From: an uncultured Oscillospiraceae bacterium
GTDB lineage: Bacteria > Bacillota > Clostridia > Oscillospirales > Oscillospiraceae
Assembly: GCA_949948775.1 (NCBI GenBank)
Contig: CATLHC010000007.1
Coordinates: forward strand, 1 to 55,239
DNA length: 55,239 bases
Direction of reading: 5' to 3'
Shown here: positions 1,377-18,233 of the stretch, piece by piece
How the letters are laid out: every line of letters starts with the position of its first letter
Numbering within the stretch: the stretch's first letter is position 1
Program-made: the position numbers and the translations under genes
The notes under the pieces: generated by a model
Databases searched by the model: none
Told to the model about the DNA's origin: nothing
What the model saw: the letters and a program-made list of their open reading frames with translations, nothing else

Positions 1377-1751
1377 AGCTTTCACCTCTATGTAATTGAT
1401 GTTCCTCTCTTGGGGGGCAGATCACCCCGCGATCTTGCGTTTAGCTTATCACACATATTTCTTGGAAAACAGATGTCCCCCGCCCAAAAAAATTTTCTGC
1501 AAATGTGCAGGTTGCACATGCGTCGTATCTCCTGTTCCTGCGCTCTTTTCCGTTTTGCCCAAGTTTCAACATATCATAGGGACATCCCGGAACTGACCTC
1601 AACCATCGTAAACGAGTGTATCGAGGGGATCATCGTCATATTGATTCCCCCAATTGGAAATCCCCAGAATTTAGAAATCCTTTCTCAAGCCTCTTGGACC
1701 GTCTGCAGTCGGACCGACGCAAAACCGTGCCACATCCGATGTTGTTCTATT
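1377..1751. other. Intergenic region, no gene seen
   Basis: About 375 bases between capA and the conserved element upstream of the structured RNA. Short open frames exist on both strands but none has a ribosome binding site and recognisable protein. It must hold the capA promoter (minus strand), which I could not place with confidence. Confidence 0.4.
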
Positions 1752-1805
1752 TGACCAAACCGCATGGATCCATTTTGGAGATTGCGCCGAAAATCACGAG
1801 CCCTC

Positions 1806-1834
1806 TTGACAACCGCGTTATCCTGTATTATAAA
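1806..1834 (+). promoter_or_regulatory. Sigma-A promoter of structured RNA copy 1
   Basis: TTGACA (1806-1811), a 17-base spacer and TATAAA (1829-1834). The same boxes and spacing occur at 18199-18227 before the second RNA copy. Upstream, 1752-1805 also resembles 18147-18198: both carry a CCAAA/TTTGG-type inverted repeat and then AAAATCAC, suggesting a shared activator or UP-type site. Confidence 0.75.
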
Positions 1835-1840
1835 AATACA

Positions 1841-2050
1841 TGTGAGGAAACTCCTGCCCAGCGTCACAGTGCCGCTGAGCAGCTTCGCCCGACAGGAAGG
1901 CGGCCCTGTTCCGTTCCAAGAGAAGGCTGTAGCCCCAAGGTTTGAGATGATTCGGCAGGAAACGTGCCGGACTCAACCGGGACCAGTCGGGCGGAGCGGG
2001 GCCGTTCTACTGCCTGAACTTGTTGTATGTATCTAATACAGGTTGAGGGG
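1841..2050 (+). ncRNA. Structured RNA, copy 1 (pseudoknotted; leader of gntR or free ncRNA)
   Basis: The region aligns along its length with 18234-18446. Shared sequence includes GCCCGACAGGAA, GTTCCGTTCC, AGTCGGGCGGA and AACTTGTTGTAT. Pairings that hold in both copies are: AGGA/TCCT at the start; CAGCG/CGCTG; stem A, GCCCGAC (1887-1893) with GTCGGGC (1986-1992); stem B, CGGCCC (1901-1906) with GGGCCG (1999-2004); an inner CGGCA/TGCCG hairpin around GAAA; and a terminal AACTTGT hairpin (2017-2044). Stems A and B interleave, so they form a pseudoknot. Stem B reads GCGACCCC/GGGGTCGC in copy 2, with compensating changes. The gntR start is 28 bases after the terminal hairpin, so a leader role is possible. 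I cannot name the family; the raiA motif class is one candidate. Confidence 0.7.
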
Positions 2051-2077
2051 GTCTTCCCCGGAAAGGAACGGTGTCCC

Positions 2078-2800
2078 ATGACGCAGCGTATTCCGCAAAA
2101 ACTGCATGAACAGGTATTTGACAGCATCAAAGATATGATCCGCTCCGGCGCGCTGGAGCAGGGCGATCTGCTGCCCAGCGAGAACAAGCTGGCCCAGCAA
2201 CTTGGCGTGAGCCGGGTGACTGTGCGCTGGGCGCTGAAGCAGCTGTCCGAGGCGGGGATTATCCAGACCCGGAAGGGCAAGGGCAGCATCGTGGCGGTGG
2301 ATTGGAAGGGGCTGCTGGAGGAGGGCGAGCACCACGACCAGGCGGAGCAGCTTCAGGCCACCTTTTTCCAGTCCACCCGGGCCCGGTGGCTCATCGAGCC
2401 CACGGTGGCCAGGCAGGCCGCCATGCTGGCTACGGAGGAGGACCTGGCCCGGATGGAGGAGGCCCTTCTCCGCCGGGAGGACGAGGTGGTGCTGGCTCCC
2501 CTGGCGGGCCGGGTCTCCGGGCGGGTGGATTTCCACACCTGCCTGTGGTCCAGCCTCCACAACCCGGTGATGATGCGGGTGTGGGAGCAGCTGTCCCAGA
2601 CCTCCGGCTCCATCAACCGCCTTCCCTTCGTGGCCCCGGTGTACCGGGACGGGCAGAAGGTGGAGGCCCAGGTCCAGCACCAAAAGATTTTCGACGCGGT
2701 AAAGAGCCGCAGCCCGGAGTACGCCTATCTCTACATGATGGAGCACTGCGACTGGATCTGGGAGACCTATGGCCAGTATTTCAAGGACTTCCTCAAATAA
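2078..2800 (+). CDS. GntR/FadR-type transcriptional regulator with FCD domain
   Basis: A 240-residue regulator. Residues about 5-75 form a GntR winged helix, with LPSENKLAQQLGVSRVTVRW and an aromatic/Gly wing (TRKGKGSIV). The rest is a helical FCD effector domain, with RWLIEPTVARQAA, then VDFHTCLWSSLHNPV and a late EHCDWIW segment supplying the acidic and His residues that bind metal or a carboxylate ligand in this family. I chose the ATG at 2078 because GGAAAGGA lies 10-15 bases upstream; an earlier in-frame ATG at 2027 sits inside the RNA hairpin. As first gene before the C-S lyase and permease it probably senses the imported amino acid or a product. It is preceded by the structured RNA. 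Confidence 0.88.
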   Translation: MTQRIPQKLHEQVFDSIKDMIRSGALEQGDLLPSENKLAQQLGVSRVTVRWALKQLSEAGIIQTRKGKGSIVAVDWKGLLEEGEHHDQAEQLQATFFQSTRARWLIEPTVARQAAMLATEEDLARMEEALLRREDEVVLAPLAGRVSGRVDFHTCLWSSLHNPVMMRVWEQLSQTSGSINRLPFVAPVYRDGQKVEAQVQHQKIFDAVKSRSPEYAYLYMMEHCDWIWETYGQYFKDFLK

Positions 2801-2905
2801 ATGGCGAATTCTTTTCCCCGACACCCCGGTGAGGCGCCGCCGGACGGAGAATGGAAGATATATCCCAAATCTCCCGGAGAGGGAGAATGATTTGGAGGTA
2901 GATCA

Positions 2906-4075
2906 ATGAGCTACAATTTTGACACAGTACACGACAGAATGGGGTCCGACTGCCTCAAGTGGGAGAAGCAGGTGAAGTTCGGGCAGCCCAGCGGCCTTCT
3001 GCCCTTCTGGATCGCCGACACCGACTTCGCCACCCTGCCCGAGACGGTGGAGGCCATGGCAAAGCGGCTGGAGCACCCCCTGTTCGGCTACACCTTTACC
3101 GGTCCCAGGACCCTGGAGACGGTGCGGGGCTGGTACGCCCGGCGGCACGGGGTGGAGCTGCCCGTGGAGGCGTTCCTGCCCTCCCTGGGGGTGGTCACCG
3201 CCATGTGGTTCTCCATTCGGGCGCTGACCAAGCCGGGGGACCAGGTGCTGGCCTTCACCCCGGTGTACGACCCCTTCTTCGCCATCATCGAGAACCAGGG
3301 CCGTGTGCTGGCGGACTGCCCTCTGACCTATGAGGATGGCCGGTACGACATCGATTGGACCGACTTTGAGGCCAAGCTCAAGGGCGGCGTGAAGGCAGTG
3401 CTGTTCTGCAACCCCGCCAACCCGGTGGGCCGGGTGTGGTCCGCCCAGGATGTGGAGCGAATGGTGCTGCTGTGCAGGCAGTACGGCGCCTACCTGCTGT
3501 CCGACGAGATCCACGGCGACATCGTGCTCTATGGAAATAAGTACACCTCCGCGGCCAGGTTCAAGGATGAGTATGACCGGATCATCGTGTACACCGCCGT
3601 CAGCAAGACCTTCAACCTGGCGGGGCTCCACTCCTCGTGTATGCTCATCCCCAACCTGGAGCTGAAGCAGCTCCAGGACAAAACCATGCGGGAGGCGTGG
3701 CTCATGGGCCCCAACTCCCTGGCCAACGGGGCCATCGAGGCGTGCTACACCTACGGAGACCAGTATGTGGACGAGCTGAACGCCTATCTGACCGAGAGCG
3801 CCCAGCTGGTGATCGACTACCTGGGGGAGCACGCCCCCCAGATCGGCGTGGTCAAGCCCGAGGGCACTTATCTCATGTGGCTGGACTGCCGGAGGCTGGG
3901 CCTCACCAGCCAGGAGATGACCGACCGGCTGGTGAAGGAGGAGGGCCTGGCCATCGGCAGCGGCGCGGGCTACGGCAAGAACGCCGAGGGTTTCCTCCGC
4001 TTTAACATCGGCTGTCCCCAGGCCACGCTGAGGCAGGGCCTGGAGAAGATAGCAAGGTTTGCAAACCATGTGTGA
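2906..4075 (+). CDS. MalY/PatB family PLP-dependent C-S lyase (cystathionine beta-lyase-like)
   Basis: A 389-residue fold-type I PLP enzyme. The MalY/PatB subfamily is marked by PFWIADTDFATLPE near the N-terminus, NPANPVGRVW, SDEIHGDI (PLP-ring Asp) and SKTFNLAGLHSS, with Lys234 as Schiff-base lysine. The C-terminal carboxylate-binding Arg is in GFLRFNIGCP. Characterised members split cystathionine or S-alkyl-cysteines into thiol, pyruvate and ammonia through 2-aminoacrylate. GGAGGT stands 8 bases before the ATG. The gene follows gntR by 105 bases and is followed closely by a permease, so imported sulfur amino acids are the likely substrate. A ridA gene downstream would handle the released enamine. 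A simple aminotransferase activity cannot be excluded. Confidence 0.87.
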   Translation: MSYNFDTVHDRMGSDCLKWEKQVKFGQPSGLLPFWIADTDFATLPETVEAMAKRLEHPLFGYTFTGPRTLETVRGWYARRHGVELPVEAFLPSLGVVTAMWFSIRALTKPGDQVLAFTPVYDPFFAIIENQGRVLADCPLTYEDGRYDIDWTDFEAKLKGGVKAVLFCNPANPVGRVWSAQDVERMVLLCRQYGAYLLSDEIHGDIVLYGNKYTSAARFKDEYDRIIVYTAVSKTFNLAGLHSSCMLIPNLELKQLQDKTMREAWLMGPNSLANGAIEACYTYGDQYVDELNAYLTESAQLVIDYLGEHAPQIGVVKPEGTYLMWLDCRRLGLTSQEMTDRLVKEEGLAIGSGAGYGKNAEGFLRFNIGCPQATLRQGLEKIARFANHV

Positions 4076-4101
4076 CCCCACAAGAGAGAGGAGCAAAACA
4101 A

Positions 4102-5409
4102 ATGGGTAAAAAACTGAATTTCACCGATTGCATGGGCTTTTGCATCGGGCAGATCGTGGGCTCCGGCGTGTTCGTCCTCACCGGCGTGGTTATGGGCCTC
4201 ACCGGCCACGGCATGCCCTACGCCTTCCTGCTGGCCGCCATCATCTCCCTGACCCAGCTCATCCCCATGGCCATCCTGGGCTCGGCTCTGCCCGCCACCG
4301 GCGGCAGCTACGTCTACGCCAAAAAGCTCATCGGCCCCAGGGCGGGCTTTGTGTACCTGATGATATTTGTGCTCTCCCAGGTGCTCATCTCCACCTTCGC
4401 GCTGGGCTTTGCCAGCTATGTGAAGGTCATCTTCCCCGCGGTGAATGAAAAGCTCATCGCAACCTTGGCCATCCTGGCTGCCGCCGGCGTCAACCTCATC
4501 GGCCTGAAGACCTCCGCCAAGGTGCAAAAGGGCATGGTGGCCCTGCTGCTGATCTCCCTGGGCATCTACATCATCTTCGGTTTGCCCAAGGTCAACTGGG
4601 AGTACCTGACCCCCGCCATGGAGAACCTGATGCCCAACGGCCCCATGAAGTTCCTGCGGGGCGCGGTGATGCTGTCCTTCGCCTGCGGCGGCGCCAAGTT
4701 CCTAGCTGAGAACGGCGGCGAGGTGGAGAACCCCGGCAAGACCATTCCCAAGGCCATGGTGGTGTCCACCATCGTGGTGGCCGTGTTCTACGCCCTGGTG
4801 GGCGTGGTGGCCGCCGCCGTCCTTCCCATGGATCAGGTGGCCGGCCAGAACATCTCCGTGGTGGCCAAAGAGATCTTCCCCGCCCCCGTGTACCTGTTCT
4901 TTGTCATCGGCGGCGCCTGGTTCGCCCTGCTGACCACCCTGAACGGCACCCTGTCCTGGGTCACCCGCGGTTTGCAGCGGGCCTCCTTCGACGGCTGGCT
5001 GCCCAAGTCCTGGGGCATGGAGAACAAAAACGGCGCCCCCGTGATCCTGCTGGGATTTTTCGTGGTGGTGGGCCTCATCCCTGTTATCACCGGCATGAAT
5101 ACGACCGATATCTCTAATATGGGCACCGGCTGCTCCAAGCTGTCCGACCTGCTGATGGTGTACGCCTGCTTCCGCCTGCCCGACGTGCTGCCTGAGGTGT
5201 ATGAGAAGTCAACCCTGAAAATGAAGCCCCGGAATCTGAAGATCGTCATGGTGATCGTCTTTATTGTGCTGGGCCTGTCCTCCTATGTCAGCTTGTCCGG
5301 CTTGACTCCCATGCAGTTCCTGGGTATGGGCATCTACATCGTGATCGCCATCGCCGTGATGCTGCTGCGGAAGAACCACTTCGCGGACGCCGACCTGGCC
5401 AAAAAGTAA
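4102..5409 (+). CDS. APC-superfamily amino acid permease
   Basis: A 435-residue polytopic protein of the amino acid-polyamine-organocation superfamily. It opens with GFCIGQIVGSGVFVLTGVVM, the first broken helix where these carriers bind the substrate backbone, and has about twelve hydrophobic stretches. LPATGGSYVYAKKL and LSFACGGAKFLAENGGE (equivalent to the FAFxGxE region of helix 6) fit the family. I chose the ATG at 4102, preceded by GAGAGAGGAG; a GTG near 4074 overlaps the lyase stop and lacks a better site. Coupled translation with the C-S lyase suggests that it imports the lyase substrate. The amino acid transported cannot be read from sequence. Confidence 0.87.
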   Translation: MGKKLNFTDCMGFCIGQIVGSGVFVLTGVVMGLTGHGMPYAFLLAAIISLTQLIPMAILGSALPATGGSYVYAKKLIGPRAGFVYLMIFVLSQVLISTFALGFASYVKVIFPAVNEKLIATLAILAAAGVNLIGLKTSAKVQKGMVALLLISLGIYIIFGLPKVNWEYLTPAMENLMPNGPMKFLRGAVMLSFACGGAKFLAENGGEVENPGKTIPKAMVVSTIVVAVFYALVGVVAAAVLPMDQVAGQNISVVAKEIFPAPVYLFFVIGGAWFALLTTLNGTLSWVTRGLQRASFDGWLPKSWGMENKNGAPVILLGFFVVVGLIPVITGMNTTDISNMGTGCSKLSDLLMVYACFRLPDVLPEVYEKSTLKMKPRNLKIVMVIVFIVLGLSSYVSLSGLTPMQFLGMGIYIVIAIAVMLLRKNHFADADLAKK

Positions 5410-5442
5410 AGCGTCAATCATCATTTCATTTTTCGTACAAAG

Positions 5443-5480
5443 GGGGAAGGGCCGTCAAGTTTCGCTTGATGGCCCTCCCC
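5443..5480 (+). terminator. Hairpin terminator after the permease
   Basis: GGGGAAGGGCC-TCAAG and CTTGA-GGCCCTCCCC form a long stem with a short loop, followed by TGCCCTTTT. It separates the gntR-lyase-permease unit from the oxidoreductase genes, although all point the same way and partial read-through is possible. Confidence 0.7.
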
Positions 5481-5514
5481 TGCCCTTTTGAAAATCCGAT
5501 CTGGGAGGGAAAAC

Positions 5515-6777
5515 ATGAGATACGGGATCGTTGGGTTCGGCACGGCAGGCTATCACGCGGCCCAGGCCATCCGGGAACAGGACAAGGCCGGAGAGGTCCA
5601 CGTGTATGGCGACACCGGCCTGGCCCCCTATAACCCCATGCTGACCACCTATTATATCTTTGGCAAGCTGCCCCGCTCCGGGCTGTTTCCCTTCGGGCCG
5701 CTGGAGGAGGTGGCGGACCGGCTGGGGCTGACCCTGCACCACGAGCGGGTGCAAAAGGTCCGCGCCCAAGACCTGGCGGTGGAGACGGAGCGGGGCGTAC
5801 AGCGCTATGACAAGATCCTCATCGCCACCGGGGCCACCGCCTTTGCCCCGCCGGTAAAGGGCCTGAGCCCGCAGGACGCCCACCTCATGCGCACTGTGGA
5901 CGACGCCCAGCGGCTGAAGGACCGGCTGGACCGGGGGGATGTGCGCTCCGCCGTGGTGGTGGGCGCGTCCATGGCGGGCATCAAGGTGGTGGAGGTGCTG
6001 GAAAAGTACGGCGTCCGGGTCTGCCTGGCCGACCTGGCCCCCCATATCTTTCCCCTGGCCGCCTATCCGGAGGTGTCCGCCGCTATTGAGAAGCGGGTGG
6101 CCAAGCGGGGGATCGACCTGCGCTTTGGGGCCACCATCGACCACATGGAGCTGTGGAACGGGCAGAAAACCGCGGTCATGACCGACGGCTCCGTGGTCCC
6201 GGCGGATCTGGTGTCCCTGTGCATCGGCACCCGGGCGGCCACCCAGGTGGTCCAGGGCGAGGTGGACATCGACCGGGGCATCCTGGTCAATGAGCGGATG
6301 GAGACCTCCGCCCCCGGGGTGTACGCCGCCGGGGACTGCGCCCAGGGCGTCAACCTAGAGAGCGGAGAGAAGCAGATCATCGGCCTGTGGGCCAACGCCA
6401 ATCGCCAGGGGGCGGCGGCGGGGGCCAACATGGCCGGAGGGGAGGCCCGGTTTGAGGGCAATATCCTTCACAACATCACCCACTTCATGGACATGGACTT
6501 TATCGGCTTCGGGGACAACCGCATCCAGGGGGAGCTGCTGGAGCAAGGTGCTCTGGACGGGGACGGGCTGTATGTCCGGGCGGTGATCTCTGGCGGAAGG
6601 GTGGCCGGGGCCAACATCCTGGACAGCTACCGCATCAGCGGCATTCTCAAAAACTACATGCTCCGCCTCTTCGCCGGGGAGGGGGGCAGCCTGCCCGACT
6701 ACCAGCGGGCCATGCTGCTCCAGGCCGGGCTGAGGGCGGAATTCATCGACAGGATGGAGGTGATGACCCGTGGATAG
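5515..6777 (+). CDS. FAD-dependent NAD(P)H oxidoreductase (electron-input subunit)
   Basis: A 420-residue two-dinucleotide-fold flavoprotein of the pyridine nucleotide-disulfide oxidoreductase class. GFGTAG (residues 7-12) binds FAD, LIATGATA follows, VVVGASMAGIKVVEVLEKYG is the NAD(P)H fold, and GVYAAGDCA is the second FAD contact. No redox-active CxxxxC pair is seen, so it resembles NirB-type or ferredoxin-reductase-like modules rather than disulfide reductases. I chose the ATG at 5515 because GGGAGGG precedes it. It overlaps the molybdoenzyme gene by 8 bases, which suggests a fixed-ratio complex passing NAD(P)H electrons to the Fe-S and molybdenum subunits. This coupling is inferred from gene order. 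Confidence 0.85.
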   Translation: MRYGIVGFGTAGYHAAQAIREQDKAGEVHVYGDTGLAPYNPMLTTYYIFGKLPRSGLFPFGPLEEVADRLGLTLHHERVQKVRAQDLAVETERGVQRYDKILIATGATAFAPPVKGLSPQDAHLMRTVDDAQRLKDRLDRGDVRSAVVVGASMAGIKVVEVLEKYGVRVCLADLAPHIFPLAAYPEVSAAIEKRVAKRGIDLRFGATIDHMELWNGQKTAVMTDGSVVPADLVSLCIGTRAATQVVQGEVDIDRGILVNERMETSAPGVYAAGDCAQGVNLESGEKQIIGLWANANRQGAAAGANMAGGEARFEGNILHNITHFMDMDFIGFGDNRIQGELLEQGALDGDGLYVRAVISGGRVAGANILDSYRISGILKNYMLRLFAGEGGSLPDYQRAMLLQAGLRAEFIDRMEVMTRG

Positions 6778-8905
6778 GCTGGAAGAGCTGATCCGGGCGA
6801 AGATCCCCTGCCCCGAGACGGGCATTGAGGTCAAGCACACCGTGTGCGCCATCTGCAGCCCCGCCTACAACTGCGGCATCAACGCCTACGTGAAGGACGG
6901 GAAGCTGCTGAAGGTGGAGGGCATGGACGAGCACCCCCGCAGCCGGGGCGGGCTGTGCACCAAGGGGCTGTCCAACCGGGGATACGTCTACCGGGAGGAC
7001 CGCATTCTCACCCCTCTGCGCCGGGTGGGCGAACGGGGCGAGGGTCGGTTTGAGCCCATTACCTGGGACGAGGCGTACAAGGAAATTTCCGACAGGCTGC
7101 TGGCCATCCGGGCACGGGACGGCGCGGACGCCGTGGCCTTCTTCGGGGGCTACAACAAGTGGTACCGCCCCTGGCTGCGGAGGTTTGCCCACTCCTTCGG
7201 CACCTTTAACTATGGCACCGAGTCCTCCACCTGCATGACGGCGGGCTGGATGGCTTGGAAGGTGGCGGCGGGCCAGCTGGCCCGGCCGGACATGGCCCAC
7301 TGCGACCTCTACCTGGGCTGGGCCTTCAACCCCTACTACTCCGGCTACCTCAACGCCCAGGCGGCGGAACGGGCCAAGGCGGCGGGGACCAAGTTCATCG
7401 TCATCGACCCCAAAATCACCCCCACGGTGGAGAAGCTGGCCGACCTGCACCTGCGCCTCTATCCTGGCACCGACGGGGCGCTGGCCCTGTGCATGGGGAA
7501 TGTGCTTATCCAAAATGGCTGGATCGACAAGGACTTCATCCGAGCCCACGTCCACGGCTTTGAGGAGTACGCCGCCTATGCCGCCAATTTCAACGAGAGT
7601 AATGTGGAGCGGCTCACCGGGGTGCCCTACGCCCAGGTCCTGCGGGCCTGCGAGATGATCCGGGACGCCAAATCCATCTCCTCCCACGAGAACAGCGCCC
7701 CCATCCCCCACCACAAGAACGGGATGCAGAACTACCGGGCCATCACGGCCCTGCTGGCGCTGACGGGGAGCTTCGACAAGCAGGGCGGCCAGCTCCCCAC
7801 CCGCCACACCTTTACCCACCAGATCGCCGGGTTCGAGACCCGGGAGGAGGAGTGGATGGACGCCACCCAGCCGGAGCACATCCGCCCCGCCGTGGGCGAG
7901 GAGCGCTTCCCCCTGTGGTTCCACACCGAGCGGGAGATGCAGGTGGTGGACCTGGCCCGGCAGATCGACGAGGGCACACCCTACCCCATCAAGGCCGTGT
8001 TCGGCATGGGGATGAACTTCCGGATGCTCCCCGAGGACGGCTACCTGGCAAAAGCCCTGGGCAAGCTGGACTTCTTCGTCAACGCCGACCTGTTTCTGAC
8101 CGACACCTGCAAGATGGCGGACCTGGTGCTCCCCGTGTGCTCCTCCCTGGAGCGGGGAGAGCTGGAGACCTACCCCGGCGGCTACGCCTGGTTCACCCAG
8201 CCCGCCATTGACCGGGTGGGGGAGAGCAAGTCCGACGTGGAAATTCTGCGGGACCTGGCCGTCCGCATGGACCTGGGTGACCAGGAGCTGGCGGCGGGCT
8301 ACGAGGCCAACATCGACTCCATGCTCACCGATGTGGGGGTGACAGTGGAGGAGCTGAAGAAGGCGGGCGTGCCGGTGAAGGTGCCCCGCTTCCGGCCCTA
8401 CCAGCCGGGGACCAGGCTGGCCCAGGGGCTGGACACCCCCAGCGGGAAGTTCGAGCTGTACTCCGAGCTCATCGCCGCCCACCCGGAGTGGGGGCTGGAC
8501 CCCCTGCCCACCTACTGCGACCCCCTGGACGGCGCCGACCCGGCCCAGTACCCCTTTGTGCTGTGCTCCGGGGGGCGGCTGCCCCACGCCATCCACTCCC
8601 GGCTGCACAAGGTGGAGTGGCTGCGCGCTATGCAGCCCGAGCCCACCGCCCAGCTCTCCGTGGAGGACGCCCAGGCCCTGGGCCTCAAGGCGGGGGACGA
8701 TATGGAGCTATACACGCCGCGGGGGAGCATCACCGTGAAGGCCAAGCCCAGCCATCGGGTGCAGAAGGGCGTGGTGTTCTTCTACCACGGCTACTCCGAG
8801 GCGGATGTGAACGCCCTGATGGACAAGGACCACGTGGACCCCTATTCCGGGTTCCCGGCCTACAACGCCACCCGGTGCGGCATGAGAAAGAAGGCGAAGC
8901 CATGA
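6770..8905 (+). CDS. Molybdopterin oxidoreductase, DMSO reductase family catalytic subunit
   Basis: A 711-residue protein starting at GTG (6770), translationally coupled to the flavoprotein. The N-terminus has a [4Fe-4S] site with Cys26, Cys29, Cys35 and Cys63; the second and third Cys are five residues apart, not the usual three. Then come DRILTPLRRVG, ITWDEAYKEIS and the FFGGYNKWY region. STCMTAGWM holds Cys155, where family members place the Mo ligand. Later blocks are the bis-MGD site FVNADLFLTDTCKMADLVLP and a C-terminal dinucleotide-binding barrel. No twin-arginine signal is present, so it is cytoplasmic. Substrate is unknown. The lyase and RidA suggest an S- or N-oxide or amino-acid-derived compound. 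Catechol dehydroxylase or acetylene hydratase-like activity are alternatives. Confidence 0.88.
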   Translation: MDRLEELIRAKIPCPETGIEVKHTVCAICSPAYNCGINAYVKDGKLLKVEGMDEHPRSRGGLCTKGLSNRGYVYREDRILTPLRRVGERGEGRFEPITWDEAYKEISDRLLAIRARDGADAVAFFGGYNKWYRPWLRRFAHSFGTFNYGTESSTCMTAGWMAWKVAAGQLARPDMAHCDLYLGWAFNPYYSGYLNAQAAERAKAAGTKFIVIDPKITPTVEKLADLHLRLYPGTDGALALCMGNVLIQNGWIDKDFIRAHVHGFEEYAAYAANFNESNVERLTGVPYAQVLRACEMIRDAKSISSHENSAPIPHHKNGMQNYRAITALLALTGSFDKQGGQLPTRHTFTHQIAGFETREEEWMDATQPEHIRPAVGEERFPLWFHTEREMQVVDLARQIDEGTPYPIKAVFGMGMNFRMLPEDGYLAKALGKLDFFVNADLFLTDTCKMADLVLPVCSSLERGELETYPGGYAWFTQPAIDRVGESKSDVEILRDLAVRMDLGDQELAAGYEANIDSMLTDVGVTVEELKKAGVPVKVPRFRPYQPGTRLAQGLDTPSGKFELYSELIAAHPEWGLDPLPTYCDPLDGADPAQYPFVLCSGGRLPHAIHSRLHKVEWLRAMQPEPTAQLSVEDAQALGLKAGDDMELYTPRGSITVKAKPSHRVQKGVVFFYHGYSEADVNALMDKDHVDPYSGFPAYNATRCGMRKKAKP

Positions 8906-9423
8906 GCAAACGGTATGCCATCGACCTGGACGTGTCCAAATGCGTGTCCTGCGGGGCCTGTGCCGTGGCCTGCATGGACCAGAACGACCTCAACGTGAAG
9001 CAGACCCGCCCCTTCCGCAACGTGTTCGACATGGAGCGGCAGGAGGGGGAGGGCACCACCTACAGCCATCTGTCCCTGGCCTGTATGCACTGTGTGGACG
9101 CCCCCTGCATCGTGGGCTGCCCCAGCGCCTGCATCCAGAAGGACCCGGAGACCAACCTCACCGTGTTCGACACCACCAACTGCATCGGCTGCCATAGCTG
9201 CGCCATGGCCTGCCCCTACGGGGTGCCCGGCTTCGGGCCGGACGGCAAGATGGTGAAGTGCGACGGCTGCTACGTGCGGGTGCACCACGGCCTCAAGCCC
9301 GCCTGTGTGAAGGCGTGCCCCACCGGAGCCCTGCGGCTCATTGATCTGGACGGACCGGAGGAGATCGCCCCCGAGAACTCCTTGCGGCATAGAAGTATGG
9401 AGATGCTGAGTAAACAAGTCTAA
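8902..9423 (+). CDS. Four-cluster ferredoxin-type subunit (DmsB/HycB-like)
   Basis: A 173-residue iron-sulfur protein that overlaps the molybdoenzyme stop by four bases (ATGA). It carries four Cys groups, each feeding [4Fe-4S] clusters: CVSCGACAVAC, CMHCVDAPCIVGC, CIGCHSCAMAC, and CDGC with CVKACP further on. This layout is typical of electron-transfer subunits of DMSO reductase-family complexes. It should wire the flavoprotein to the molybdenum subunit. No membrane anchor gene follows, which supports a soluble NAD(P)H-linked complex rather than a quinone-linked respiratory one. Confidence 0.9.
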   Translation: MSKRYAIDLDVSKCVSCGACAVACMDQNDLNVKQTRPFRNVFDMERQEGEGTTYSHLSLACMHCVDAPCIVGCPSACIQKDPETNLTVFDTTNCIGCHSCAMACPYGVPGFGPDGKMVKCDGCYVRVHHGLKPACVKACPTGALRLIDLDGPEEIAPENSLRHRSMEMLSKQV

Positions 9424-9451
9424 CGTTCAAAAAGAAAGGAGAAAAAGCGTC

Positions 9452-9820
9452 ATGAATGTTGTGGAAACTAAAAATGCTCCCGGGGCCATCGGACCCTATT
9501 CCCAGGGCTGGGAGGTCAACGGCTTTGTATTCACCTCCGGCCAGATCCCCGTGGACCCCGCCGGCGGCGCGGTGCCTGAGGGCATTGCCGCCCAGGCGGA
9601 ACAGAGCTGCAAAAACGTGTGCGCCATCCTGGAGGCTGCCGGAACAGACGCGTCCAGGGTGTTCAAGACCACCTGCTTCCTGGCCGACATGGGGGACTTT
9701 GCCGCCTTCAACGAGGTGTACGCCCGCTATTTTATCTCCAAGCCCGCCCGGAGCTGCGTAGCGGTGAAGGACCTGCCCAAAGGCGTTCTGTGCGAGATTG
9801 AGGCCATCGCGGTTAAATAG
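9452..9820 (+). CDS. ridA: RidA family enamine/imine deaminase
   Basis: A 122-residue RidA/YjgF/UK114 protein. APGAIGPYSQGWEVNGFVFT and SGQIPVDP are the family N-terminal blocks, and a conserved Arg sits in the late KPARSCVAVKDLP region with the terminal CEIEAIAV. Known RidA proteins hydrolyse 2-aminoacrylate and related imines made by PLP enzymes, protecting other PLP enzymes. Its place at the end of the molybdoenzyme operon, with a MalY/PatB lyase upstream, suggests that it clears 2-aminoacrylate made during C-S cleavage. AAAGGAG precedes the ATG. The length is normal. Confidence 0.92.
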   Translation: MNVVETKNAPGAIGPYSQGWEVNGFVFTSGQIPVDPAGGAVPEGIAAQAEQSCKNVCAILEAAGTDASRVFKTTCFLADMGDFAAFNEVYARYFISKPARSCVAVKDLPKGVLCEIEAIAVK

Positions 9821-9905
9821 GGCCTCCGCCCTGCTCTGAGGCGGGGCCGTGTCGGCGTTTGCCGGTAGGCGGCGCGGCGCCCATTGCGCGTAGCCTCGCA
9901 AAAGG

Positions 9906-9942
9906 CGTCCCCGGCTGCATAGAGCAGCCGGGGACGTTTTTT
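9906..9942. terminator. Bidirectional intrinsic terminator between convergent operons
   Basis: CGTCCCCGGCTGC and GCAGCCGGGGACG form a perfect 13-bp stem with an ATAGA loop and TTTTTT on the plus strand. The minus strand has CCTTTTG after the stem, so it can also end the molybdenum cofactor operon. Confidence 0.93.
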
Positions 9943-10016
9943 GCCGCTTTTTATGTTTGCGGTCCATGCGGTCGCGCTTTGAGCCCCTGCATGCTTTGCG
10001 CGCTCAGAGGTCCCGA

Positions 10017-10913
10017 TCAGGTCAGCTCCTCCTCCGTGACACACTCGCTTTTGAGCCTGTCCACCAGATATTGGAGCGCGTCCACCACGTGCGGGCGAAT
10101 GTCGCCGCCAATCAGGACGAGCATCAGATCATCGCCTACGCGCAGCCTGCCCTCGTTCAGCCAGACGCGGACATGGTAGATCCCAGGCAATTTTTCGGTT
10201 TCGGCCACCGCCCTGCTCACCTTTTCCTCATCATATGAGAATACCATGCCGGAAACAGGAGCCGCCATTTTACCGCATCCCCTGGCCTGCGCCCTGGCGG
10301 TGCCCCGCACCACACCGTTGTGGGTCAGGTACATCCCAATCTTTTCCGCGAACGGCCCGGCCTTCGCCTCCCGGAGCCACTCGTCCACGGAGGGGACCCG
10401 CTCCCGGCCGGAAGGCCGCGATTCCCCACAGTTGGCGGAGCCGCTTCCCAGCAGCATTTCCACGCCGTGCGCAATCGCTCCAATGACGGCCGTCAAATTT
10501 TCCACGGCCGCTTTTTCGCTCCCGGGCAGATTGATGATGAGGGTCCTTCCCCGAATGCCCGCCGCCGCGCGGGAAAGGCAGCCCTTCGGGGTGAGGCGCA
10601 GGCTCTCCGCCCGCATCGCCTCCGGGATGCCGGGAGCGGCGCGCTCCACCACCTCCAGCGTCGCCTCCGGGGTGACGTCCCGGGGGGAAAGGCCGGTGCC
10701 GCCGGTGGTGAGGACAAGGTGAATCCCCAACGCGTCGGCGCACTTGATCAGCTCCGCCTTGATCTCCTCCTTTTCATCGGGGATCAGATTTGTGTAGCGG
10801 ACCGTCCACCCCGCCCGCTCCAGAACGGCCCGGACTGCGGGGCCGCTGGTGTCCACACGCTCGCCCCTGGCTCCCTTGTCGCTGACGGTAATTACCGCCG
10901 CCGTATAGCTCAT
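10017..10913 (-). CDS. MogA/MoaB-type molybdopterin adenylyltransferase fused to a MoaE-like domain
   Basis: A 298-residue two-domain protein, last of the Mo operon. Residues 1 to about 160 form a MogA/MoaB fold: AAVITVSDKGARGERVDTSG, then the signature TTGGTGLSPRDVTPEA and LINLPGSEKAAVE. Family members adenylylate molybdopterin before molybdate insertion. Residues about 185-298 resemble MoaE: NGVVRGTARA, then HVRVWLNEGRLRVGDDLMLV and a C-terminal helix. The Lys in the normal MoaE C-terminal WKKE-type motif is not evident, so this domain may be structural. I chose the ATG at 10913, which overlaps the upstream stop by four bases; a longer open frame upstream is not protein-like. No free MoaD or MoaE gene is in the window. 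Confidence 0.82.
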   Translation of the reverse strand: MSYTAAVITVSDKGARGERVDTSGPAVRAVLERAGWTVRYTNLIPDEKEEIKAELIKCADALGIHLVLTTGGTGLSPRDVTPEATLEVVERAAPGIPEAMRAESLRLTPKGCLSRAAAGIRGRTLIINLPGSEKAAVENLTAVIGAIAHGVEMLLGSGSANCGESRPSGRERVPSVDEWLREAKAGPFAEKIGMYLTHNGVVRGTARAQARGCGKMAAPVSGMVFSYDEEKVSRAVAETEKLPGIYHVRVWLNEGRLRVGDDLMLVLIGGDIRPHVVDALQYLVDRLKSECVTEEELT

Positions 10914-11881
10914 ACGGATTCCTCCCGCTGAAAATCTCCATGGACGCCGCCGGTCTTGCGGAGCAGCCGGATGTCGGAGATTACAATATCCCTCTGTACG
11001 GCCTTGCACATATCGTACACCGTCAAGGCCGCCGTGGAGACCGCCGTCAGCGCCTCCATCTCCACGCCGGTCCGCCCGTCGCAGGAGACCACCGCCTGAA
11101 TTTCCACGCTGCACCGCTCCTCATCCAGCCACAGGGACAGGTCAACGCCGTCCATCAGGACCGGGTGGCACAGGGGAATCAGATCGGGCGTCCGTTTGGC
11201 GCCCATCACGCCCGCAATCTGCGCTGCGGCCAGCACATCGCCCTTCTTCATGCCGCCGGACCGGATCAGGCCGAAGGTCTCCCGACCGATCAGCACCCGC
11301 CCGGCGGCGGCGGCGGTACGGCGGGACGCGGGCTTTTCCCCCACGTCCACCATCCTGGCGCGGCCCGTGTCGTCAAAGTGTGTAAAATCGTTTGCCGGCT
11401 TCACCATAATCCTCCCCATAATAAAGTTGGCGATTCCTTCGATCTCGTCCGGTCTGAAGCAGGGGAGGTCGGTCTCAACCTCCAAATCGGTGACGAGCGC
11501 AATAAATCGGTCGATATCGGCGGGAAAGCCCTTTCCGGTCTCTCTTCGGGCCATGCCGATCTGCGGCAGCGGCCCGTTTTTATACCCCTCCACCAGAATT
11601 AGGTCCACGTCCCGGACCATCCCGAGCAGCCGCTCCAGGGGGAGTCCGCGCTGCTCCACGTACGCCGTCCGCTCCGCCGAGCCGAGCATGACAATGTCCG
11701 CCCCCGCCTGGGCAAACCGCCAGGAGTCCTTGCCCGCGTGGTCGATCTCAAAGCGGTGGCCGTCGTGCTTGAGCACGGCCAGCCGCAGACCCTTGGCCTT
11801 CAGCGCCTTGACCAGCTTTTCGATCAGGGTGGTCTTTCCCGTCCCGGAATAGGCGGCAAAAGCAATCGCCGGAATATTCAT
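10910..11881 (-). CDS. MobB-MoaC fusion protein
   Basis: A single 323-residue frame holds two cofactor-pathway proteins. Residues 1 to about 158 match MobB, a GTP-binding partner in guanine-dinucleotide cofactor formation: AAYSGTGKTTLIEKLV is the P-loop, followed by LKHDGH and VEGYKNGPLPQI. Residues about 165-323 match MoaC (cyclic pyranopterin monophosphate synthase): FTHFDDTGRARMVDVGEKP, KRTPDLIPLCHPV and GVEMEALTAVSTAALTVYDM, with DMCKAVQRD. The join is in frame with no sign of sequencing error. It starts three bases after moaA stops. Both active-site regions look intact, so two activities are expected. Confidence 0.88.
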   Translation of the reverse strand: MNIPAIAFAAYSGTGKTTLIEKLVKALKAKGLRLAVLKHDGHRFEIDHAGKDSWRFAQAGADIVMLGSAERTAYVEQRGLPLERLLGMVRDVDLILVEGYKNGPLPQIGMARRETGKGFPADIDRFIALVTDLEVETDLPCFRPDEIEGIANFIMGRIMVKPANDFTHFDDTGRARMVDVGEKPASRRTAAAAGRVLIGRETFGLIRSGGMKKGDVLAAAQIAGVMGAKRTPDLIPLCHPVLMDGVDLSLWLDEERCSVEIQAVVSCDGRTGVEMEALTAVSTAALTVYDMCKAVQRDIVISDIRLLRKTGGVHGDFQREESV

Positions 11882-11884
11882 GGC

Positions 11885-12838
11885 TTATCCTCCGATGCGG
11901 TTCATGCCGCGCCCGGCGCCGCTGCGCCGTGTGGCGGACAGCGGCGCGTGGCAGGCCGGCTTGTCCAGGATGGCCCGCTCCATTTCCCGGCGCATTTCGT
12001 CAAGGCCCAGCCCTTTGATGGAAATCTCCCGGTCGGAGTGCAGGCAGGGCTTCAGCTTTCCGTCCGCGGTCAGCCGGATGCGGTTGCAGGCGGTGCAGAA
12101 ATGGCTGCTGACCGCGCTGATCAGCCCGACGCTGCCCTTCGCTCCGGGGAGGCGGTACAGCCGCGCCACGCCGTCGCTGCGCGCCTCCGGCAGCAGCTCC
12201 GGCAGAGCGGACAGCACCGCCGAGGCGGGGACGTAGGCCCCCCGGCCGAACGCCTCATGCTCCGTCATGGGCATCAGCTCAATAAAGCGGACGTCGGCGG
12301 GATAGCGGCGGGTCAGCTCCGCCAGCGCCGGAATCTCATCATCGTTAAAGCCGCCGATCAGCACCGCGTTGAGCTTCAGACGCTCAAATCCGGCCTCCAG
12401 CGCGGATTCAATGCCCCGCAGGGCCTGCGGCAGCGCGCCGGTCCGGGTGATGTGGGCGTATTTGCCGGGATTCAGCGTATCCAAGCTGATATTCAGCCGG
12501 TCCACCCCGGCGCGGCGCAGGTCCTCCGCCAGCGGGGCCAGCAGCGTGCCGTTGGTGGTCAGGCACACCTCGCGGATTCCCGCCACCGCGGCGGCCCGCT
12601 CGCAGATGGAGAGGATGTTTTTCTTCACCAGCGGCTCTCCGCCCGTCAGCCTCAGCTTATGGATTCCCAAGGAGGCGGCGGCTCGTACCGCTAGAATCAT
12701 CTCGTCCTCGGTGAGCATTTCCTCGTGATTCTTTTTGCACACTCCGTCCTCCGGCATGCAGTAGCGGCAGCGCAGATTGCAAAGGTCCGTCACCGACAGA
12801 CGGAGGTAGCTGATCTCTCTTCCGTAGGTATCCCGCAT
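11885..12838 (-). CDS. moaA: GTP 3',8-cyclase MoaA
   Basis: A 317-residue radical SAM enzyme for the first step of molybdopterin synthesis (GTP to 3',8-cyclo-GTP). The N-terminal SAM cluster motif is SVTDLCNLRCRYCMP; LTGGEPLVKK contacts SAM; LTTNGTLL follows. The C-terminal second [4Fe-4S] cluster is supplied by FCTACNRIRLTADGKLKPC. The protein ends with the Gly-Gly tail (RIGG) needed in MoaA. I chose the ATG at 12838, one base after the upstream stop with GGAAG ahead; a TTG five codons earlier is the alternative. It lies between the molybdopterin-binding gene and the mobB-moaC fusion. Confidence 0.95.
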   Translation of the reverse strand: MRDTYGREISYLRLSVTDLCNLRCRYCMPEDGVCKKNHEEMLTEDEMILAVRAAASLGIHKLRLTGGEPLVKKNILSICERAAAVAGIREVCLTTNGTLLAPLAEDLRRAGVDRLNISLDTLNPGKYAHITRTGALPQALRGIESALEAGFERLKLNAVLIGGFNDDEIPALAELTRRYPADVRFIELMPMTEHEAFGRGAYVPASAVLSALPELLPEARSDGVARLYRLPGAKGSVGLISAVSSHFCTACNRIRLTADGKLKPCLHSDREISIKGLGLDEMRREMERAILDKPACHAPLSATRRSGAGRGMNRIGG

Positions 12839-12839
12839 G

Positions 12840-13856
12840 TCAGTATCTTCCAAAGGTGCAATTGGGCCAACGGCAGGTTTGGCACATCTGGCACAGCCCG
12901 CCGCTGCCCAGGCGGACCAGGTCCTCTTTGGTCAGCCTGTCTCCGGCAAAGATTTGGGGCAGCAGGACGTCAAAAATCGTGGTCGGCAGGCTGATGGCTG
13001 CGCCGGGTACGCCGAGGATCGCCGTGTCGCCCACATATGCCGCAAGGGTCATATTCCCCGGCTGGGCGGGGACGCCGTGGCTGACTACCTGCGCGCCCAA
13101 GGCCCGGATGGCGGAGGGGGTCAGGTCGTCTGGGTCCACGGACATGCCGCCAGTGAAGATCAGAAGGTCCGCGCCCAGCTCCAGATGCCTTTTGGCGGCG
13201 GTCGTAATCATGTCCAGATTGTCGTCGCAGATGGTCGCGCCCACGATCTCTGCGGGATACCGCGCCAGCTTTTCGCGCACCACGGGCTCAAATTTGTCCT
13301 TGACGCGCCCGTGGTACACCTCGCTGCCGGTGACGGTCACGCCCACCCTCCGGCGCCGGTAGGGGCGCAGGTCAAACAGCTTTTTTCCCCTGCACAGCTC
13401 CTCCGCCTGGGCAAGCTGCCCCTCCTGCGTCACCAGCGGGACAATGCGCATGGAGGCCAGCCGCGCCCCCTTTTCCACTGGGTAGTGGTCGGGAAGGGAG
13501 GCGATGGTGAGGTCCCCAATGGAATTGAGCCGGCTGAGAAGCCCGGCGTCCACCCGGAACATCCCCCGCTCCTGGGCCATCAGCAGTACCTTTCCCTCGG
13601 ACGGCTCGGTGTAGCGCGCGCCGGCGACGGGCGCCATGGCCGCCATGCGGCGGGCAGCATCTTCCTCATGAACTTCTCCGGCGTTTTCCTCCCACACGAA
13701 AACAGTGCGCTTGCCGTAGTCCAAAAGCCTGGGGATGTCCTCCTCCCGGATGACGTGCCCCCGCTTGAAGGCCGCGCCCTTGAAGCCGTCGTACATGGCC
13801 GTCACGTCATGGCAGAGTTCCATGCCCACGGCGTCCTCCACTTTGACCTTTTTCAT
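12840..13856 (-). CDS. Molybdopterin-binding protein with Cys-rich tail (MoCF-fold)
   Basis: A 338-residue protein of the clostridial molybdopterin-binding group. The C-terminal half has a MoeA/MogA-like MoCF fold: GVTVTGSEVYHGRVKDKF, CDDNLDMI, LIFTGGMSVDPDDLTPSAI and PGNMTLAAYVGDTAILGVPG. The N-terminal half (VEDAVGMELCHDVT, then FKRGHVI) resembles the MoeA linker region. It ends with CQMCQTCRWPNC, a four-Cys tail that may bind metal or a cluster. It overlaps moeA by four bases and so is translated with it. Its exact step is not established; a role in cofactor insertion or maturation is plausible. Confidence 0.78.
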   Translation of the reverse strand: MKKVKVEDAVGMELCHDVTAMYDGFKGAAFKRGHVIREEDIPRLLDYGKRTVFVWEENAGEVHEEDAARRMAAMAPVAGARYTEPSEGKVLLMAQERGMFRVDAGLLSRLNSIGDLTIASLPDHYPVEKGARLASMRIVPLVTQEGQLAQAEELCRGKKLFDLRPYRRRRVGVTVTGSEVYHGRVKDKFEPVVREKLARYPAEIVGATICDDNLDMITTAAKRHLELGADLLIFTGGMSVDPDDLTPSAIRALGAQVVSHGVPAQPGNMTLAAYVGDTAILGVPGAAISLPTTIFDVLLPQIFAGDRLTKEDLVRLGSGGLCQMCQTCRWPNCTFGRY

Positions 13857-15067
13857 AGCAAAAATCCTTTCAAAACCGTTCCGGCGCTGAGCGGCCCGCT
13901 CCCGGCCGGGACCACCGCCATCAGGTCGCAGCCGATGGCGCTGCTGAGTACCACATTCCCCTGATCCTTCGGCAGCTCCATACAGGCCGCGCCGCCCTTC
14001 AGGTTCAGCCTTCCCCGCAGAAAGCGGGTTTTGGGACTCTTTTTGTCAAATCCGGAGGAGAGCGCCACGGGGAACTCCTGCGGGAAGCACACCCTGACGC
14101 CCGCCAGCTTTTTCAGCGCGGGAAGCGCGACGGCGTAGAGATTGGTCAGGGAGGAGGCGGGATTCCCCGACAGAGCGCAGATGAGCCTTCCGTCCCTGAC
14201 GCCGTAAGCGCAGGCCATTCCCGGTTTCATGTCCACGCCCCGGAACAGCAGGTGCGCGCCGGCGGCATCCATGGCGGCGGGCGTGACGTCGTAGTCTCCC
14301 GCCGACACGCCGCCGGTGGCCACAACCGCGTCGCACGCGGCGAGGCCCTGGTCCAGCGCCGCCGCGATCTCCTCAACGCGGTCCCCGGCGATGCCAAGAT
14401 AGACCGGCGTGCAGCCCAGCCGCCGCAGTGCCGCCTCCAGCATATAGCGGTTGGAGTTGCGGATCTGCCCCGGCCCCGGCAGGCCGTCGGCCTCCACCAG
14501 CTCGCTGCCGGTGGACAGGACGGCCACCCGGGGGCGTTTGTAAACCAGGGGAACCGCCATCCCCTGTGCCGCCAGCGCCCCGGCCAGGCCGGGGTCGACC
14601 ACATCCCCACGCCGCGCCAGCACAGCGCCCCTTCGGATGTCCTCCCCGGCGCGCACAATGTTGGCCCCCGGCTTCACCGGCCCGAACAGGGTGACGGAGC
14701 GGTCCGTAAAGCTGGTCTTCTCATACATGACCACCGCGTCTGCCCCCGGCGGTATGGGTGCGCCGGTGAGGACCTTCGCGGCGGTTCCCTCCGTCACGGT
14801 TTCGGCGGGCGCCGCGCCGGCGGGGATTTCCTCCAGAATGCGGAGCGTCACCGGCGCGCTGTGACAGGCGCAGGCCGTGTCCGCGGCGCGCAGGGCGTAG
14901 CCGTCATAGGGGGAGCGGTCAAAGGCGGGGACGTCCTCCTGTGCGGCCGGCTCCTCGGCCAGCACGCGCCCGCCGCATTGGGACAGGGGGATCCGCTCCG
15001 CCCCCACCGGCCGCGCCGCCGCCAGCAGCAGCTCCCGGGCCTGTTCATAATCAGGATGATTCAGCAT
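13853..15067 (-). CDS. moeA: Molybdopterin molybdotransferase MoeA
   Basis: A 404-residue MoeA, which inserts molybdate into adenylylated molybdopterin. Family blocks are FDRSPYDGYALRAADT, then EIPAGAAP and AKVLTGAPIPPGADAVV, RAGEDIRRG, AVLSTGSELVE, TGGVSAGDYD and ALSGNPASS. The C-terminal domain IV is present, so the length is normal. I chose the ATG at 15067, with GGAGGG 8 bases upstream inside modC; a GTG three codons earlier is too close to that site. It overlaps modC by 17 bases and the next gene by four, so the operon is tightly coupled. Confidence 0.93.
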   Translation of the reverse strand: MLNHPDYEQARELLLAAARPVGAERIPLSQCGGRVLAEEPAAQEDVPAFDRSPYDGYALRAADTACACHSAPVTLRILEEIPAGAAPAETVTEGTAAKVLTGAPIPPGADAVVMYEKTSFTDRSVTLFGPVKPGANIVRAGEDIRRGAVLARRGDVVDPGLAGALAAQGMAVPLVYKRPRVAVLSTGSELVEADGLPGPGQIRNSNRYMLEAALRRLGCTPVYLGIAGDRVEEIAAALDQGLAACDAVVATGGVSAGDYDVTPAAMDAAGAHLLFRGVDMKPGMACAYGVRDGRLICALSGNPASSLTNLYAVALPALKKLAGVRVCFPQEFPVALSSGFDKKSPKTRFLRGRLNLKGGAACMELPKDQGNVVLSSAIGCDLMAVVPAGSGPLSAGTVLKGFLL

Positions 15068-16115
15068 CAGCGCCACCCTCCAGCAACAGCAGTGATTCCA
15101 CCGGCAGGCAGATGTCCAGCTCGTCCGCCCGCAATTGATTCCAGATCCGTTTTTCCGTCTCCCAACCGATGGGGACCGCGCGCTCCCTGTCTGCGGGCCG
15201 GAGCATGACCGTCACGGAAAAGGGATTTTCGATCACCTCCGTCACCCGGCAGCGGATCACGTTTTCCGTGCCTCCGACGCGCACGTCGTGCATGCGGATG
15301 CCCACATAGCGGGCGTTTTCGGCGGGTCCCGTCACCGACAGCGCCATCTCCCATTCCGAGGCATAGACGCGGTTCTCCCCCACGCGCCGGACGGCGGAGA
15401 TATTTTTGCAGCCGGTCAGCGCGGCCCCGGCCCTCGTGCGCGGGGCGGAGAAAACGGCGTCTCGCCCGCCGCAGACGTCGACCCGCCCGTGGCTGATCAC
15501 CGCGATGGCGTCCGCCATCCGGTAGACCTCGTCCCGGTCGTGGGACACCAGAAGGGCGGTCTTCCCGAAGGAGCGGATTACCCCCCGCACCTCCTGCTCC
15601 AGACGAAAGCGCAGATGGCTGTCCAGGGCGGAAAAGGGCTCGTCCAGCAGCAGAATGCGGGGCGCCGACACCAGGATGCGGGCCAGCGCCGTCCGCTGCT
15701 GCTGCCCGCCGGACAGCTGACGGGGATATCGCCCCGACAGCTCGGACAGGCCGAAGCTGTCCATCACCTGCCGCACGGCGCGCTCCCGTTTTGCCCTGTC
15801 CTTTTCCCGTTTTGCCCCGGCGCGGATGTTCTGGAGCACGGTCATGTTGGGGAACAGCGCGTAATTCTGAAACAGCAGCCCCACGCGCCGCTCCTGGGGC
15901 GACAGGTTGACGCCCCGCTCGGAGTCGAACAGCGTCACACCGTCCACGACGATGCGGCCGCTGTCCGGCGTTTCAATGCCGGCGACGCATTTAAGGGTCA
16001 TGCTCTTGCCACAGCCGGAGGCGCCTAAAAGGGCGAGGGTTTCGCCGCCCGCCTCAAACCGGATGTCTAAAGAAAACGCGCCCAGCTTCTTCTTGATGTC
16101 CACGAAAACAGACAT
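15051..16115 (-). CDS. modC: Molybdate ABC transporter ATP-binding protein ModC
   Basis: A 354-residue ATPase. Residues 1 to about 235 form the nucleotide-binding domain: LLGASGCGKSM is Walker A, FQNYALFPNMTV contains the Q-loop, RQLSGGQQQRTALARIL is the signature, LLLDEPFSALD is Walker B and LLVSHDRDEVY the H-loop. The C-terminal 110 residues form a TOBE/MOP-like regulatory domain that binds molybdate in homologues. The start codon abuts the modB stop with no gap. The gene lies in the modA-modB-modC order expected for molybdate import. Confidence 0.93.
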   Translation of the reverse strand: MSVFVDIKKKLGAFSLDIRFEAGGETLALLGASGCGKSMTLKCVAGIETPDSGRIVVDGVTLFDSERGVNLSPQERRVGLLFQNYALFPNMTVLQNIRAGAKREKDRAKRERAVRQVMDSFGLSELSGRYPRQLSGGQQQRTALARILVSAPRILLLDEPFSALDSHLRFRLEQEVRGVIRSFGKTALLVSHDRDEVYRMADAIAVISHGRVDVCGGRDAVFSAPRTRAGAALTGCKNISAVRRVGENRVYASEWEMALSVTGPAENARYVGIRMHDVRVGGTENVIRCRVTEVIENPFSVTVMLRPADRERAVPIGWETEKRIWNQLRADELDICLPVESLLLLEGGADAESS

Positions 16116-17846: not shown

Positions 17847-17897
17847 AATCGACACAATCACACAAGGGATACGCCGGAGGGCGTAACCCTGATTCAT

Positions 17898-18227: not shown

Positions 18228-18233
18228 AATACA

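Follow-up and report, generated by a model that had tools for sequence, protein, structure and literature searches.

The question raised by this locus is why a stretch of about 300 bases lying ahead of a gntR gene should occur a second time on the same contig, and whether it makes an RNA of its own or serves to control its neighbor. Copy 1 (1752-2050) and copy 2 (18147-18446) constitute a two-copy element within one genome and one contig; the 55,239 nucleotides analyzed here are referred to as the window. A first-pass annotation had proposed that the copies are homologous over some 300 bases, and this was confirmed when the 2.82-Mb genome was searched with copy 1, which returned copy 2 at 18198-18439 (E 5.2e-37, 75% identity), copy 1 itself, and 17 short matches at chance level (E 0.014 and above). 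The parts corresponding to the expected transcript, 1838-2052 and 18231-18446, are 73% identical.

The homologous unit was found to be larger than earlier described. By local alignment, the upstream homology starts at ∼1744/18138, with a score reached by none of 1000 shuffles, and the downstream homology ends at ∼2100/18496, past the gntR ATG at 2078, with a score reached by 10 of 1000; when the start-codon stretch was aligned alone, 14 of 1000 shuffles reached its score. This is modest evidence that the homology probably takes in the ribosome site and the gntR start codon, to approximately codon 7-8. The DNA further upstream of the two copies shows no relation (855 of 1000 shuffles reach the score). 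The unit consists of upstream sites, promoter, RNA, ribosome site, and probably the first gntR codons. Where gntR begins in copy 1, copy 2 contains a plus-strand frame of 18 codons (18474-18530) that is a probable truncated gntR remnant, although the frame was read by eye and its alignment across the start codon is matched by 10-14 of 1000 shuffles. Because the homology spans the gntR control region, the element more likely began as a leader, with copy 2 in a derived role; the alignments suggest an ancestral gntR promoter-leader from which copy 2 descends as an orphan leader.

Two trivial origins were considered and rejected. A mobile element fits poorly with the presence of only two copies and with homology edges that do not lie at palindromes; neither copy was matched in plasmid or phage records at E 0.01, nor was the GntR protein in plasmid records at E 1e-20. 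A protein-coding origin was discarded on the basis of single-base alignment gaps and of stops, judged by eye, in the three plus frames, which leave no shared plus-strand frame over the RNA body. One plus frame of copy 1 is open for 65 codons and is interrupted in copy 2.

The element had been described as a conserved structured RNA, and structure is indeed kept beyond chance between the two homologues. The fold of the pair alignment (alifold) gave a z of -5.75, which was matched by none of 300 column shuffles that preserved conservation and gaps, and the single-copy folds gave z values of -3.9 and -4.4 against dinucleotide shuffles (0/300 each). Paired changes between the copies had also been taken as a sign of selection on structure. 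Such changes are real but few: in a 43-pair structure drawn by hand from the two sequences, 2 pairs change on both sides, 6 change on one side, and 35 are invariant. This signal does not rise above the shuffle control (141 of 500 shuffles were as high), a limit set by having two sequences. When the pairing partners were slid, pairing fell from 100% to 31-46%.

Ranking of the helices that both copies can form placed stem b (GGCGGCCCUG/CGGGGCCGUU) first and stem a (CGCCCGAC/GUCGGGCG) second. Stems a and b are the two strongest conserved helices, at -19.2 and -21.5 kcal/mol, and such values were reached by 1 of 300 column-shuffled alignments for the first-ranked helix and by none of 300 for the second; the third- and fourth-ranked helices were unremarkable (70/300 and 93/300). 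These are the interleaved stems reported previously, GCCCGAC/GTCGGGC being identical in both copies and CGGCCC/GGGCCG being replaced by GACCCC/GGGGTC in copy 2.

On the plus strand of copy 1, the structure begins with hairpin P1 (1854-1882), in which 8 pairs are kept in both copies and 2 show a one-sided change. It continues with the 5' strand of stem a (CGCCCGACAGG, 1886-1896), the 5' strand of stem b (1899-1908), and the invariant GTTCCGTTCC (1908-1917). Hairpin P3 (1939-1978), with one two-sided pair change in its outer stem, lies between the strands of stems a and b and is followed by the 3' strand of stem a (CCAGTCGGGCG, 1983-1993; assigned from the helix ranking and the pair-change count), the 3' strand of stem b (1997-2006; from the helix ranking), and the 3' hairpin P4 (2017-2044; from the fold and the pair-change count). 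Stem a has no pair changes between the copies, and stem b has one two-sided and two one-sided changes. The same helices are present in the structured RNA of copy 2 (18245-18441, plus strand), with stem a at 18280-18290/18378-18388 and stem b at 18294-18303/18392-18401. Two loops described as unchanged, GTTCCGTTCC and GACAGGAA, are so in letters but are not loops throughout: part of GTTCCGTTCC can pair with GGGCGGA (1989-1995) in the nested fold, through a helix no stronger than chance (70/300), and the first letters of GACAGGAA belong to the GCCCGAC stem.

Stems a and b may form a pseudoknot or may equally be alternatives. The order of elements is a, 5-6 nt, b, 77 nt containing P3, a', 3 nt, and b'. 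A 3-nt link beside an 8-bp stem would leave little room for a classical pseudoknot, and in the nested fold stem b is lengthened through letters that stem a needs; for both reasons, we commit to neither coexistence nor exchange. Rough energy sums for copy 1 are equal, at -93.8 for the nested fold and -94.2 for a and b together before any pseudoknot penalty; for copy 2, the nested fold is ahead (-100.2 versus -94.8).

Identical promoter geometry had been claimed for both copies, and a TTGACA-17-TATAAA arrangement was read by eye on the plus strand at 1806-1834 and 18199-18227. Neither promoter-like site was listed by a simple promoter scanner, the rule of which demands T as the last base of the -10 element. 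From the site in copy 1, transcription would be expected to start at ∼1840-1842. The conserved upstream stretch of copy 1 (1744-1797, plus strand; the local alignment with copy 2 described above) ends in AAAATCAC at 1790-1797, where it had been noted before. The corresponding stretch of copy 2 (18138-18192, plus strand) holds a perfect TTGTGACAAAAATCACAA palindrome at 18175-18192, of the form TTGTGA-N6-TCACAA, which resembles CRP or Rex sites. About half of this palindrome is kept as TTGCGCCGAAAATCACGA (1782-1799, 3 mismatches) in copy 1. Over the whole window, the loose form (up to 3 mismatches) is no commoner than expected by chance, occurring 18 times against a chance mean of 12.6, a count reached by 10 of 100 shuffles.

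A second palindrome, TTGTAT-N7-ATACAA, occurs twice in both copies, once over the -10 element (O1) and once in the 3' hairpin (O2). In copy 1, O1 (1823-1841) reads CTGTAT-N7-ATACAT with 2 mismatches, and O2 (2023-2041, inside P4) reads TTGTAT-N7-ATACAG with 1; in copy 2, O1 (18216-18234) has 1 mismatch, and O2 (18418-18436) is the perfect TTGTATCTTATTAATACAA. The distance from the start of O1 to that of O2 is 200 bp in one pair and 202 bp in the other. At up to 2 mismatches, the window contains four matches, all within the two elements (chance mean 0.40; no shuffle in 100 reached four), and the genome contains 43 places compared with 19 for a control pattern. At up to 1 mismatch, the genome contains four places, three of which are in the two elements. 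The fourth (contig C51) was rejected as an operator since it lies at the border of two genes in a decarboxylase-like operon and, by eye, not at a promoter. The gene adjoining O1 and O2 of copy 1 is gntR (2078-2800, plus strand), which encodes a GntR-family regulator with an FCD domain (Pfam PF00392 and PF07729). This regulator is the natural candidate to bind O1 and O2, which are putative operators on the grounds of sequence and adjacency. GntR operators are usually drawn with shorter spacing, which counts against such a role. The longest run without change between the copies, 25 bases, comprises most of O1 and the expected transcription start. Within this run, at the expected transcript start, an ATG is directly followed by TGA (1840-1845 and 18233-18238), which may be chance.

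Behind gntR and on the same strand (2906-9423) lie genes for a PatB-type C-S lyase, an amino-acid permease, an NAD/FAD oxidoreductase, a molybdopterin oxidoreductase, and an Fe-S protein, and gntR is probably co-transcribed with these downstream genes. Copy 2 is arranged head to head with molybdate uptake and molybdenum cofactor genes that have their own riboswitch and promoter-like site, and by their positions the two copies appear to frame a molybdoenzyme region. The riboswitch (17890-18024, minus strand, 73.7 bits), with a TTGACT-17-GATAAT promoter-like site at 18036-18064 on the same strand, precedes modA, probable modB and modC, moeA, moaA, and moaC-mobB genes. The GC content is 62-69% over 2001-16000 and 52-64% in the rest of the contig, the RNA copies lying near both ends of the richer stretch.

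The reading that we prefer, and to which we give about an even chance, is that the element is a duplicated control region of gntR, autoregulated and containing a structured leader that may be bistable. Copy 1 occupies the position of a 5' leader of gntR, where copy 2 has only its 18-codon frame. In this respect the first-pass annotation, which had seen an RNA with its own promoter that in copy 1 could also lead gntR, is upheld as to the promoter-like sequence, but a free-standing RNA gene before gntR is judged improbable and a leader the likelier arrangement. From the TTGACA-17-TATAAA promoter, a leader of ∼240 nt would be transcribed ahead of the gntR start codon and would fold into hairpins P1 and P4 and, between them, the long stems a and b, which interleave around hairpin P3. 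These two stems might form one compact pseudoknot, or they might exchange, with CCAGUCGGGCGGA pairing with CGCCCGACAGG to give stem a in one state and, in the other, with the UCCGUUC and GRCUG segments by which stem b is extended. Whichever fold prevails would determine how strongly gntR and the lyase-permease-molybdoenzyme genes downstream are expressed, translation being the most likely point of control. The O1 and O2 palindromes, in the DNA at the ends of the leader, would serve as operators in repression of the promoter by GntR itself, perhaps through looping. Copy 2 would have retained the control region and the fold and lost the gene.

The probable gntR ribosome-binding site, AAAGGA (2062-2067, plus strand), was located by eye, and the end of the stem b 3' strand is complementary to this region. 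When stem a of copy 1 was forced and stem b left free, b' was predicted to pair with the ribosome-site region with a probability of 0.81-0.95 per pair, in a duplex that is unexceptional (81 of 1000 shuffles match it). The predicted openness of the ribosome site was 0.24-0.25 with stem a forced, 0.30-0.45 with stem b forced, 0.28-0.38 in the free fold, and 0.46-0.47 with stem a forced and the strands of stem b blocked. It thus barely differs between folds (0.24-0.47), and a clean switch by ribosome-site occlusion was not supported. Other observations argue against a leader: the fold is kept in copy 2 without the gene, which a pure leader would not need; there are only two sequences; and the nearest two gntR homologues found are without such a leader.

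The conserved fold of copy 2 in the absence of a gene is the best argument for an alternative that we consider possible but rather unlikely, namely that the product is a free-standing, trans-acting structured RNA made from both promoters, copy 2 being a dedicated RNA gene and gntR being reached in copy 1 only by read-through. Copy 2 has a promoter-like sequence, the fold, a possible terminator, and no recognized gene behind it; on the plus strand, the first gene downstream to match a family encodes a LysR regulator at 19776, beyond a convergent peptidase gene. The extent to which the RNA body is conserved between the copies also speaks for such an RNA, the UUCCGUUCC of which could bind ribosome sites, including that of gntR: CCGTTCC of the GTTCCGTTCC region is complementary to GGAACGG (2065-2071) at the gntR ribosome site, with a duplex energy reached by 26 of 1000 shuffles. 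In all folds computed, this CCGUUCC pairing has a probability of 0, so that it is unlikely in cis and is a lead only in trans. Against a trans-acting RNA, no plus-strand terminator-like site was found in 1300-2950, and so none precedes gntR in copy 1; the homology probably continues through the gntR start; and the possible terminator of copy 2 (18524-18557, plus strand), a hairpin followed by TTTTTT that overlaps the end of the convergent peptidase gene, is weak, the stretch 18520-18565 folding at -11.4 kcal/mol and being absent from the scanner output.

It is unlikely that only copy 1 is a functional leader and that copy 2 is a dying relic, a partial duplication in which structure has yet to decay. 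The loss of gntR from copy 2, except perhaps for its first codons, would be expected of a relic, as would the 9 of 74 pairs of the copy 1 fold that are broken there. However, in either direction many more pairs survive than random change would leave: the fold of copy 1 applied to copy 2 retained 65 of 74 pairs (control 55.0, S.D. 2.5; 0/5000), and the fold of copy 2 applied to copy 1 retained 60 of 70, with 10 broken (control 50.4, S.D. 2.7; 1/5000). Moreover, O2 and TTGTGA-N6-TCACAA are perfect in copy 2 and imperfect in copy 1.

Still less probable is a DNA element first and foremost, in which operators and GC-rich inverted repeats are bound by a regulator and the RNA fold is a by-product. 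The recurrence of one palindrome as O1 and O2 at nearly the same distance and the position of the longest invariant run are consistent with this explanation, and the minus strand also folds better than shuffles (z -3.68), which is weaker than the plus strand (-5.75) yet well above them. The structure is nevertheless clearer on the plus strand, and neither stem a nor stem b falls within the palindromes. In the copy 1 fold, Watson-Crick pairs changed to G-U in 9 cases, to A-C in none, and to other mismatches in 7; in the copy 2 fold, the corresponding numbers were 6, 5, and 3. The strand evidence therefore comes mainly from copy 1, copy 2 being neutral.

A diverged member of a known family such as raiA/ModT that the models have missed is highly improbable, for although ModT is reported to have a similar length, pseudoknots, and a SigA-type promoter (PMC11706538), raiA (RF03072), the first guess of the first-pass annotation, gave no match to either copy even at E 10, and the genome as a whole yields a raiA score of at most 16.4 bits (contig C50), far from the gathering cut-off of 101.3. 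With the Rfam 15 models, neither copy reached the gathering cut-off of any family, in keeping with the earlier statement that the RNA could not be placed in a riboswitch class. Over the whole window, only a tRNA and the molybdenum cofactor riboswitch (17890-18024, minus strand) scored above cut-off. With the threshold relaxed to E 10, copy 1 gave one match (Flavi_TBFV_SL6, 16.3 bits versus a cut-off of 38.3) and copy 2 gave five, the best being BTH_s1, which was rejected because its 27.2 bits are far below 74 and it is absent from the copy 1 list. 6S RNA (RF00013) was also rejected, with no 6S match on either copy; the 6S RNA of this genome sits elsewhere (contig C84, 64-271, 50.8 bits, over the family cut-off). 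No description of the element was found in the literature searched, which was largely outside subscription journals, and a word search of the main text of PMC11109978 and PMC8632094 for gntR, molybd, PatB, and Clostridia returned none of these terms.

Five genome searches of 42-400 genomes each recognized no relative. A blastn search of 300 family genomes with copy 1 found none among the matches listed (two candidates scored per genome). A covariance model built from the two copies (R1) was run with stricter filters against 42 genus, 394 order, 400 family, and 391 class genomes, sets that overlap and include the source genome, and no third member was recognized, among the matches listed (up to 6 candidates per genome) in the three large sets. 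Weak R1 matches at five loci (L015, L016, L017, L019, and L119; 15.1-29.9 bits) were judged to be chance when their alignments were read: most of the core is missing from the L015, L017, and L119 alignments and part of it from that of L016, and the L019 match starts only beyond the stem a 5' strand. When searched as short stretches, these weak matches gave E-values down to 5.6e-8, which were discounted because calibration is rough, the model has two sequences, and the opposite strand of copy 1 itself receives 22.7 bits. The minus-strand R1 matches lie over O1 and P1 (1818-1885, 22.7 bits; 18211-18280, 16.8 bits), possibly owing to the self-complementarity of P1 and the likeness of O1 to the 3' hairpin. 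Scanning by pattern produced 15, 0, 2, and 36 viral hits, together with 81 hits in genomes (80 listed as loci), and R1 scored nothing above 13.0 bits on those 15, 2, 36, and 80 loci. Homologues of GntR at E 1e-25 or better were present in only one other genome of 296 (G014; 45% and 40% identity), among the matches listed (up to 9 candidates per genome), and neither is preceded by such a leader. The element may be rare, young, or fast-changing.

The contig was kept as genuine, and a mixed assembly is possible. The M24 peptidase encoded beside copy 2 (18517-19590, minus strand) shares only 39-42% identity with its counterpart in 36 other genus genomes, and a second, genus-like M24 peptidase is present on contig C23; the former could have been acquired, could be an old paralog, or could be a sign of mixed assembly. 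The aspartate aminotransferase encoded at 29648 is 87-92% identical to those of 13 other genus genomes (one a partial gene), with at least 20 other genus genomes giving no match. In seven compared stretches from six genomes, no synteny was found apart from the aspartate aminotransferase gene and, in one stretch, glycosidase pieces.

A two-copy control region whose RNA matches no known family may represent a regulatory RNA that is new and very rare. Methods that depend on many homologues readily overlook rare RNA classes, and here two copies within one genome were enough to reveal conserved RNA structure. The place is unusual, in that the fold lies between matched palindromes at the regulator's own promoter; if leader and operators act together, DNA-level and RNA-level control would be combined in one short stretch. 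The orphan copy 2 provides a natural test of whether a leader can turn into a trans-acting RNA. A bolder proposal, to which we attach only a small chance, is that the two copies are the first members of an RNA class both new and very rare: a bistable leader with a pseudoknot (possibly a riboswitch sensing either a sulfur amino acid or a metabolite linked to molybdoenzymes) between its own regulator's two operators, with the orphan copy 2 acting in trans on copy 1.

Of the known systems nearest to the element, ModT (RF03072) is reported to have 215-nt and 260-nt forms, two pseudoknots, and a housekeeping SigA-type promoter (PMC11706538), features that resemble those of the element in length, interleaved pairing, and promoter type, but there is no sequence-structure match, and ModT is reported in >2,500 species, whereas the element was recognized in one genome. 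The molybdenum cofactor riboswitch (RF01055) adjoins copy 2 but is a separate element, and neither copy matches its model. Translational riboswitches with long-range or pseudoknot alternatives likewise have a structured leader with interleaved, possibly competing stems upstream of a ribosome site; the element differs from them in having no assigned ligand, in matching no known class, and in the weakness of its computed coupling to the ribosome site. Autoregulated GntR/FCD operator pairs offer a parallel in the palindromes at -10 and ∼200 bp downstream, beside a gntR-FCD gene. Unlike such pairs, the element holds a structured RNA between its putative operators, and its control region has been duplicated without the gene.
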